This document shows, piece after piece, positions 54,359-61,879 of a DNA stretch of 64,000 nucleotides. Location of the stretch: positions 784,927 to 848,926 of the forward strand of contig NZ_ML974127.1 of the NCBI RefSeq assembly GCF_004765815.2, written 5' to 3'. Every line of letters begins with the position of its first letter. Within the stretch, counting starts at the first letter, position 1. This DNA is from Halorussus salinus. GTDB lineage: Archaea > Halobacteriota > Halobacteria > Halobacteriales > Haladaptataceae. Both the position numbers and the translations under genes were made by a program. The notes beneath the pieces were generated by a model. It searched no databases. It saw only the letters and a list, made by a program, of their open reading frames with translations, and was not told the DNA's origin.

Positions 54359-54550
54359 TGCCGAGGGGTAGTCAGTCGGGACTTGTGTACTCGTCGGTCC
54401 CGAGCGTCGTGAGAATTGAACTGTGGCGACTCCTTGTCGAGGAGCAACGGCGAAGTCGAACGAAAGGGAGCGACTACCGACAGCACGGCAAGCGCCGACA
54501 GCACGACGAACAGCACTATCGCCGATGCCTATCAGACCGCCACTGCATAG

Positions 54551-54825
54551 CACCGTCCCGCACAGCCCTGTCCCGCACCGTCCCGCACAGCCCTGTCCCG
54601 CACCGTCCCGCACAGCCCTGTCCCGCACCGTCCCGCACAGCCCTGTCCCGCACCGTCCCGCACAGCCCTGTCCCGCACCGTCCCGCACAGCCCTGTCCCG
54701 CACCGTCCCGCACAGCCCTGTCCCGCACCGTCCCGCACAGCCCTGTCCCGCACCGTCCCGCACAGCCCTGTCCCGCACCGTCCCGCACAGCCCTGTCCCG
54801 CACCGTCCCGCACAGCCCTGTCCCG
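54551..54825. repeat. Minisatellite: eleven identical 25-bp units
   Basis: Eleven copies of a 25-base unit (CACCGTCCCG followed by CACAGCCCTGTCCCG) without any difference between them, then a partial unit at 54826-54840. The bottom strand has three GGG tracts per unit, 33 in all, so it may form G-quadruplexes. Frames across it stay open on both strands only because the unit lacks stops; they are not genes. There are no spacers, so it is not CRISPR. It lies in the 601 bases (54359-54959) upstream of get3 and downstream of the glycosyltransferase. The rest of that spacer (54359-54550) shows nothing. Confidence 0.95.
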
Positions 54826-54917
54826 CACCGCCCCGCACCGCAGACCGCGCCCCGTGCCTCCCCGCTTCCGCACTCGGCCGCGCAGAACCGCGAGCGCGGC
54901 CGAGCGCGCGGCGCATC

Positions 54918-59353: not shown

Positions 59354-59405
59354 TTTTAGGTGTGCCAAAAACAGAACGTTTTTCTAATTTAGGCGGACCT
59401 AAATT
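59354..59405 (+). promoter_or_regulatory. Two tandem DtxR-type palindromic boxes
   Basis: Box 1 is TTTTAGG-TGTG-CCAAAAA at 59354-59371 (one mismatch in symmetry). Box 2 is AATTTAGG-CGGA-CCTAAATT at 59386-59405, a perfect inverted repeat. TTAGG-N4-CCTAA is the pattern known for DtxR/SirR-type metal-dependent repressors in haloarchaea (recalled). Box 2 ends six bases before the ATG at 59411, where it would block transcription. Confidence 0.7.
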
Positions 59406-59410
59406 CTAGC

Positions 59411-61879
59411 ATGGCGACGAACCGACGCGACCTGTTGAAAGCGGGAAGCGCACTGCTCGCAGGCGTCTCGCTGGCTGGCTGTGGGGGACGGCTCGAAGAA
59501 GGTACTAGCACGACGACCTCTCGGGTGACCGTGACGACCGACGCCGAGGAGACGACCACGACCGGCGGTGACCCGCCGAGTGCCGCCGAACTCGCGGTCG
59601 CGGCCGAGTGGAACGTCTACCGGGCGATGGCCCACGACGCGCTCGCGCTCGGTCTCGCCGGAGAGTTCGACGCCGCGGCCACCGTCGCGGGCGACACCTT
59701 CGAGAAGTTCGAGAAAGCCTCCGGCGAGTGGGGTGCCCACGAAGCCCTCGAATCGACCGGCAAGGAGTACTACGAGGAGTTCGAGGAAGCCCTCGGCCAA
59801 CTCCGGGAGCGCGCCGGGGGCGAGAACGTCGAGGAGATGCGCGTCGAGACGGGTCTCGTCTCCGAACACCTCTCGGCGGCCCAGACGGCGCGGGCGGGAA
59901 CGGCGAACGCCCACGCGCTGGACCTGCTGGCGCTCGGGTCGCGGGCCTCGACCGCCGCCGCGCTCGCGGGTGCCGAGAAGTTCGACGCGGCCGCGACGGT
60001 GGCCGGTGACGCCTACGCGGCCTTCGAGGAGGCCGACGCCCACGCTGCGCTCGAAGAGGCCGACGGGGAGAGCTACGACGCCTTCGAGACGGCGCTCGAA
60101 GACGCGCAGAAAGCGGCGAAGAACGGAAGGCCGAAGCGAGTCCGCGAGCAGGCCAGCGCCGCGCTCGACGCCGCGGCGACCGGAGCCTACGCCGTGGCCG
60201 ACGGCGAGGAGGCGGCCGGTGCGGGCTACATCGCGGCGATGCAGGCCCGCGGCTACGACGCCGGGGCGCTCTCGTCGCTTGGCGGTCCCTCGACGGACTT
60301 CGCCCACGCCGCCGCCCTGAACGTCTACCGGGCGCGAGCCTACGACGCGGCGTGGCTGACCGCCCGCGGGCGGTCCGACCGCGCGAAGGCGGTCGCGCAG
60401 GACACCTTCGCGCACTTCGAGGGCGCGAAGTCCCACGAAGCACTCGAGGAGGCCGACGGCGAGGCCTACAAGGGCTTCGAGGCCGGGCTGAAGGACCTCG
60501 CCAGCGCGGCCGGGAACGGCGACGCGGAGGCCGCCCGGAAGGCCGCCGATGCCGTCGAAAGGCACCTCCGCGCGGGCATCTCGGCGCTCGCCACCCCGAC
60601 CGAGGCCGCGATGCTACAGGCCGCCTTCTTCCGCGCGCGGTTCGGCGACGCCCGCGAACTGTACGCGCTCGGCGACGGCGCGGCCGCCGCGAGCGTCGCG
60701 CAGGGTCTCTTCGAGCGGTTCGAGAAGGACCACCTCGGTTTCCACGAGGCGCTGGAGAGCGCGAGCGAAGACCTCTACGAGGGCTTCGAACACGAACACC
60801 TTCAGAAAGGGTTGATTCCGGCCTTCGAGAGCGGGAACGACGAGGAGGTCGAAACCCACTTCGCTGGCGTGAACGACGCGCTGTTCGAGTTCGAGACGAA
60901 GGTTGGTTCGACCGCGCGGGTCAGCGCGGCCGAGAGCGGACTGATGAGCGCCCGCGTGTTCGACGCCGCGGCGCTCTCGGCGCTCGGGCGGTCGAGTCGC
61001 GCCCGGTCGGTCGTCCAGTCGGCCTTCCAGCACTTCGAGGAGGGCGCGGGCGGCTTCCACGAAGCACTCGAAGGGGCCGACCGCGAGCTGTACGAGTCCT
61101 TCGAGAGCAGACTGAACGCGGTCGGCGGTGCGGCCAGCGGGTCGGGCGACGCCTACGCGAGAGCCAAGGAGTTCGACGCCGACGCGGTGGCCGGAATCTA
61201 CGCGGTCGTCGCAAACGCGGGCGGGGACTTCGGCGGCGCGGCCGCGAGCGTCGCGCGGGACGCCTTCGCCGGGTTCGAGGAGGCGAGAGTTCACGAGATG
61301 CTGGAGGAGGCCGACCGGGAGACCTACGAGAGCTTCGAGAGCAAGCTGAACGAACTCGTCGGCGCGCTGGACGACGGAACCGGCGTCTCGGGCGCGCTCG
61401 GAGCGTTCGCCCGCGCGTCGGTCCGCGCGGAGTTCGCCGTGGCCGGAGCGCCCGAGAAGGCCCCGGTCGGCGAGGGCGGCGGGGAGTCCGGGGGCGAGTC
61501 CGAGAAGCAACTCGAAGGCGGTCCGAACGTCGTGACGGGCGTGCCTGACGACGCCGACCACGTGGTGGACATGACGGCCGTCGCGTTCGAGCCAGCCGAA
61601 CTGACCGTGAAGAAGGGCGACACGGTGGCCTTCGAACACGTCGGCGGCGAACCCCACTCCGTCACGGCCGACGACGAGAAGATACCCGACGGCGCGGACT
61701 ACTGGGCGTCCGGCGGCTTCGACTCCCAAGAGAAGGCCGTGAAGGGCTGGGAGAGTGGGAGAGGCGCGGTCCAGTCCGGCCAGTCGTACGTCCACACCTT
61801 CGAGACGAAGGGGACTCACGAGTACTACTGCATCCCCCACGAGGCCGCGGGGATGGTCGGCACAATCGTCGTAGAGTAG
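59411..61879 (+). CDS. Lipoprotein with six helical repeats and C-terminal blue-copper domain (DUF5059-like)
   Basis: 822 residues. Tat lipoprotein signal NRRDLLKAGSALLAGVSLAGC with lipobox Cys24, then a Thr-rich linker. About 60-700 consists of six repeats, each with a core like DTFAHFEGAKSHEALEEADG and YKGFEAGL (HEALE core, conserved Glu/His/Tyr). The last 110 residues are a halocyanin-like cupredoxin with copper ligands His in GEPHSVTAD, Cys and His in YYCIPHEAAG and Met in AAGMVG. Predicted to sit outside the membrane and bind copper or transfer electrons. Two DtxR-type boxes upstream suggest metal-responsive expression. Confidence 0.85.
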   Translation: MATNRRDLLKAGSALLAGVSLAGCGGRLEEGTSTTTSRVTVTTDAEETTTTGGDPPSAAELAVAAEWNVYRAMAHDALALGLAGEFDAAATVAGDTFEKFEKASGEWGAHEALESTGKEYYEEFEEALGQLRERAGGENVEEMRVETGLVSEHLSAAQTARAGTANAHALDLLALGSRASTAAALAGAEKFDAAATVAGDAYAAFEEADAHAALEEADGESYDAFETALEDAQKAAKNGRPKRVREQASAALDAAATGAYAVADGEEAAGAGYIAAMQARGYDAGALSSLGGPSTDFAHAAALNVYRARAYDAAWLTARGRSDRAKAVAQDTFAHFEGAKSHEALEEADGEAYKGFEAGLKDLASAAGNGDAEAARKAADAVERHLRAGISALATPTEAAMLQAAFFRARFGDARELYALGDGAAAASVAQGLFERFEKDHLGFHEALESASEDLYEGFEHEHLQKGLIPAFESGNDEEVETHFAGVNDALFEFETKVGSTARVSAAESGLMSARVFDAAALSALGRSSRARSVVQSAFQHFEEGAGGFHEALEGADRELYESFESRLNAVGGAASGSGDAYARAKEFDADAVAGIYAVVANAGGDFGGAAASVARDAFAGFEEARVHEMLEEADRETYESFESKLNELVGALDDGTGVSGALGAFARASVRAEFAVAGAPEKAPVGEGGGESGGESEKQLEGGPNVVTGVPDDADHVVDMTAVAFEPAELTVKKGDTVAFEHVGGEPHSVTADDEKIPDGADYWASGGFDSQEKAVKGWESGRGAVQSGQSYVHTFETKGTHEYYCIPHEAAGMVGTIVVE

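Follow-up and report, generated by a model that had tools for sequence, protein, structure and literature searches.

The window analysed here is a 64-kb stretch of the Halorussus salinus genome. Near its end lies a gene for an exported multidomain protein, which the initial annotation had delimited exactly as we do, preceded by two operators of the DtxR type:

59355..59370, no strand: distal DtxR-type operator TTTAGGTGTGCCAAAA, 1 mismatch, resembling the proximal operator closely and placed 33 bp further upstream
59388..59403, no strand: proximal DtxR-type operator TTTAGGCGGACCTAAA, perfect match, 7 bp before the ATG
59411-61879, plus strand: open reading frame, ATG start, 822 aa
59411..59482, plus strand: Tat signal with twin Arg and lipobox LAGC (Cys24), from sequence and ortholog alignment
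59579..59899, plus strand: repeat 1, residues 57-163, with D76, E101, H110, E114, Y121, E125
59900..60199, plus strand: repeat 2, residues 164-263, degenerate, with His211 kept in no more than 28/49 orthologs
60206..60280, plus strand: extra helix 266-290 from predicted secondary structure, resembling a lone helix A (likeness by eye, 6.3-bit match only)
60290..60592, plus strand: repeat 3, residues 294-394, with D312, E337, H342, E346, Y353, E357
60593..60907, plus strand: repeat 4, residues 395-499, with D413, E438, H445, E449, Y456, E460 and the extra invariant H463 and H483
60908..61150, plus strand: repeat 5, residues 500-580, seemingly without its own helix D, with D518, E543, H550, E554, Y561, E565
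61145..61450, plus strand: repeat 6, residues 579-680, without the helix-A Asp, with E623, H628, E632, Y639, E643
61553..61876, plus strand: plastocyanin/halocyanin-like type-1 copper domain, Copper-bind match, ligands H749, C807, H810 and M815

Elsewhere in the window, at positions 54550-54838, a 25-bp unit (GCACCGTCCCGCACAGCCCTGTCCC) is repeated in near-perfect tandem, with 11.6 copies at 99% match. The array lies just upstream of a minus-strand gene for a probable ArsA/GET3-like ATPase, the name being read from its translation.

The protein is a member of a known haloarchaeal family, DUF5059 + Copper-bind (Haloferax HVO_1228/hcpE). Pfam DUF5059 (PF16502) matches residues 62-685 along its entire profile (1-619/619; E 1.9e-221, 737.6 bits against a cut-off of 25). 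Of 391 genomes in the class, 100 carry the domain, as does the control genome of Haloferax volcanii, and H. mediterranei HFX_RS06015 has the identical domain set (PMC9240420). Archaeal DtxR-regulon surveys aside, the literature searched contained no function, repeat reading or regulation for DUF5059 + Copper-bind; the family is already known, and the six-unit dissection and the operators come out of the present analysis. Other lineages carry a shorter form (497-525 aa) with exactly three repeats followed by the copper domain. One genome (G207) encodes two full-length DUF5059 copper proteins (L067, L068), with operators at both.

R5 and R6 of the twin-Arg motif and the lipobox Cys24 are invariant in all 49 full-length orthologs, in agreement with the initial annotation of a Tat-exported lipoprotein. 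Copper-bind (PF00127) covers residues 719-822 (E 1.6e-17, 64.2 bits against a cut-off of 21.2), the type-1 ligands H749, C807, H810 and M815 are likewise invariant (49/49), and a fold search with this domain returned plastocyanin at a Z of about 12. The TIGR03102 halocyanin model scored below its NCBIfam cut-off (42.1 bits against 93.8). Many of the short three-repeat forms (L058-L065) have His or Gln in place of the axial Met (CIPHEAAGH, CIPHEAAGQ), a substitution that, judged from sequence, should shift the redox potential.

Homology among the repeats was assessed with HMMs, each built from the orthologs of one repeat and scored on the other five, with 1000 shuffled copies as the control. 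Single-repeat HMMs detect the remaining five repeats at 19-63 bits; shuffled copies reach at most 8.1 bits, a difference that rules out chance repeats. Six homologous helical repeats of ~100 residues thus precede an intact C-terminal type-1 copper domain, as initially described. Across 54 repeat sequences, the only positions conserved at 90% or more are F, E, H, E, Y, F and E. The set E..H...E......Y...E (Glu/His/Glu/Tyr/Glu) is invariant in repeats 1, 3, 4, 5 and 6 of 49 distinct full-length orthologs. The acidic residues of the motif are 99% conserved in these orthologs, whereas the other 92 D/E residues are 48% conserved, so that conservation of the motif reflects more than haloarchaeal acidity. 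Repeat 2 has lost the conserved His, leaving at most five fully conserved candidate sites. The initial proposal of conserved His/Glu in every repeat and of up to six bound metal ions therefore stands for five repeats and fails for repeat 2. From the invariance of these residues, the repeats likely bind metal. Beyond DUF5059, a search of 197 genomes of the phylum gave no credible repeat relative outside the haloarchaea; its one match (L113), to what looks like a HEAT-like protein of tandem repeats, was taken as chance.

Structure prediction, which had been suggested at the outset, was run with AlphaFold2 and models the repeats as helical bundles. With 17 orthologs, pLDDT exceeds 90 over most of the repeat region, and repeat 3 in isolation, modelled with 54 sequences, reaches 98.1. 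The repeat unit is predicted to be a four-helix bundle, each unit in the model comprising helices A and B, then a short helix that carries the HExLE motif, then helices C and D. Fold searches with the repeat returned only common up-down bundles (PsbQ, NarQ, cytochrome c', SmbP), and we therefore assign it to no family. The best sequence match in the PDB (E 3e-4) is a single 39-residue stretch of a designed helical protein and was taken as chance.

The two operators occupy the 129-bp gap between the DUF5059 gene and a divergent aldo/keto reductase gene, whose start we read as 59281. They match TTAGGNNNNCCTAA, the IdeR/DtxR operator consensus (PMC8464063), at the promoter of the DUF5059 gene, and account for every hit in the window when up to 2 mismatches are allowed (0.12 expected). 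We scanned the ortholog loci at ≤1 mismatch in 12, counting a duplicate of the window's own locus once. An operator lies within 200 bp of the called start in 59 of 59 distinct loci, short forms included, compared with 23 of 1966 control segments of 300 bp; at L058, where the called start lies too far upstream, the operator falls just inside the called frame. A second operator lies 33-37 bp upstream of the proximal one in about 49 of the 59. Iron-type regulation of the DUF5059 gene is strongly supported by these predicted sites.

The same palindrome occurs 22 times in the H. salinus genome, against 2 for the reversed pattern. Most of these operators precede genes for siderophore synthesis (diaminobutyrate aminotransferase/decarboxylase), for siderophore-binding lipoproteins (Peripla_BP_2), for an SBP_bac protein, for an ABC ATPase or for DUF7551/DUF7552; FecCD belongs to the same cluster. 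One operator precedes a gene of the GSDH family, so a connection with iron is not evident at every site. Fe_dep_repress matches nine places in this genome, six counted over the cut-off. In one region (L094:239-10095), one FecCD permease and one ATPase are surrounded by several siderophore-binding lipoprotein paralogs of 400-426 aa, every one of which has a DtxR-type operator of its own in front.

Gene neighbourhoods in other genomes point to the same system. In Natrinema/Haloterrigena (L010, L025, L011) and in L076, the DUF5059 gene is the last in a same-strand siderophore ABC run; in the Natrinema/Haloterrigena relatives the gene is preceded by a FecCD-type ABC transporter. A Fe_dep_repress gene lies close downstream in L013 and L067; in L013 it is accompanied by genes for DUF7552/7551 and DUF7260. 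DUF7551/DUF7552 and DUF7260 recur beside DUF5059 genes or behind DtxR-type operators (L013, L014, L022, L098, L101) and are additional candidate members, as yet uncharacterised, of the iron regulon in haloarchaea. Co-occurrence of IucA/IucC with DUF5059 is weak (38 observed against 28 expected, p 0.014, phylogeny ignored), and a tight link to siderophore biosynthesis was dropped on these numbers.

In two published H. volcanii transcriptomes, HVO_1228 varies along with siderophore genes. It rises with iucA/B/D upon endA knock-down, which is not an iron-starvation experiment (log2 +4.2; PMC7714728), and changes by -2.92 together with the iucA/bdb/dat iron genes in another study that is not an iron-starvation experiment (PMC9051519). 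The ten-fold table of an iron-starvation proteome does not include HVO_1228, which counts against the explanation we favour (PMC11349517). Operators, regulon, siderophore-transporter neighbours and co-expression, all of them evidence outside the initial annotation, give strong independent support to its guess of a role in iron uptake.

The invariant, likely metal-binding residues, the copper domain and an iron-repressor-type switch of the kind that precedes siderophore genes suggest that the protein probably takes part in archaeal iron uptake, a role not recognised before. The reading we favour, and hold to be somewhat more probable than its negation, is that of a lipid-anchored haloarchaeal protein induced by iron starvation, in which the repeats bind iron, the copper domain alters its oxidation state and the metal is handed over to ABC transporters. 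When iron is ample, the two operators, which overlie the promoter, would be occupied by a repressor of the DtxR family and the gene would be silent; at low iron, the protein would be made together with the siderophore system. It would be exported by Tat and anchored by Cys24, as the invariant motifs suggest. In five four-helix-bundle repeats, each Glu-His-Glu-(Tyr)-Glu cluster may bind a metal ion, most likely iron. The type-1 copper domain would then take electrons from the bound metal or give electrons to it, changing the oxidation state of what we infer to be iron, before the metal passes to ferric/siderophore ABC transporters. The protein could thereby do an EfeO-like job in organisms without EfeU. 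A bolder form of this proposal, which we regard as possible and advance tentatively, holds that the tandem bundles with Glu3-His(-Tyr) sites and copper-domain redox constitute a new multi-site iron protein, a haloarchaeal route that evolved in the place of EfeUOB.

The intact type-1 copper site and the DtxR-type control would also suit a halocyanin carrier made at low iron to replace iron carriers, its repeats serving as a spacer or docking scaffold away from the membrane. Halocyanin is the haloarchaeal one-electron carrier (PMC8305020), and the iron-starvation proteome shows a drop in respiratory subunits (PMC11349517). A spacer, however, would not require the E/H/E/Y/E set to stay invariant across 49 orthologs in five of the repeats, and the motif is largely kept while the repeat number shifts from six to three; we consider this carrier unlikely. 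The motif itself might be explained without metal. Repeats 1, 3, 4 and 5 keep a conserved Arg and Asp in helix A, and in four repeats it could be this Arg, in place of a metal, that pairs with the Glu residues. The E/H/Y/E residues would then form buried structural polar networks with them, and the protein would serve iron uptake through protein-protein contacts. Repeat 6 retains E/H/E/Y/E although it lacks the helix-A Asp, and we judge this explanation to be quite unlikely.

Copper or divalent metals in general are a further candidate for the ligand, the repeats acting as an SmbP-like buffer that supplies or protects the copper domain. SmbP (3u8v) is the top Foldseek match for the isolated repeat (E 0.037), superposes on repeat 2 with a Z of 11.7 (rmsd 2.3, 83/83 residues) and gives a Pfam match (PF16785) below the gathering cut-off (13.3 bits against 29, E 0.099). 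On the isolated repeat, however, its Z of 10.4 (rmsd 2.5, 83 residues) ranks 15th among unrelated helical bundles, within the background for such folds. The regulon is moreover of the iron type, and Glu-rich sites fit Fe/Mn better than Cu. We regard a copper buffer as very unlikely. Should binding of iron by the repeats and its hand-over to ABC transporters prove correct, DUF5059, which roughly one in four of the sampled haloarchaeal genomes carries, would gain a function, and archaea with siderophore systems and without EfeU would gain an extracytoplasmic iron-handling component. The repeat scaffold would hold a new metal-site motif that is readily testable in Haloferax volcanii.

Among known systems, the full-length match is to DUF5059 + Copper-bind proteins (HVO_1228/hcpE; HFX_RS06015), which share the architecture of the Halorussus protein. 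Its C-terminal domain has the His-Cys-His-Met ligands of halocyanin/plastocyanin but is joined to a ~620-residue repeat domain. The repeat unit as modelled resembles SmbP in being an extracytoplasmic up-down four-helix bundle of similar size; SmbP, however, is a single domain, the sequence match has an E of 0.099 and the fold score lies within the helical background. The similarity to EfeO proposed in the initial annotation does not extend to family membership: the Halorussus protein has no Peptidase_M75 (PF09375) match, 0/97 haloarchaeal genomes have one (controls positive), and the FTR1/EfeU permease is found in 0/391 haloarchaeal genomes and in the 4 control genomes. The missing M75 domain and the missing FTR1/EfeU partner rule out membership in EfeO/EfeUOB, and an EfeO-like job would be done without homology to EfeO. 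What holds is the domain logic, in reversed order and with repeats in place of M75: like EfeO, with its cupredoxin and M75 helical domain, the Halorussus protein is exported, combines a cupredoxin with a His/Glu-rich helical domain, and is linked to iron.
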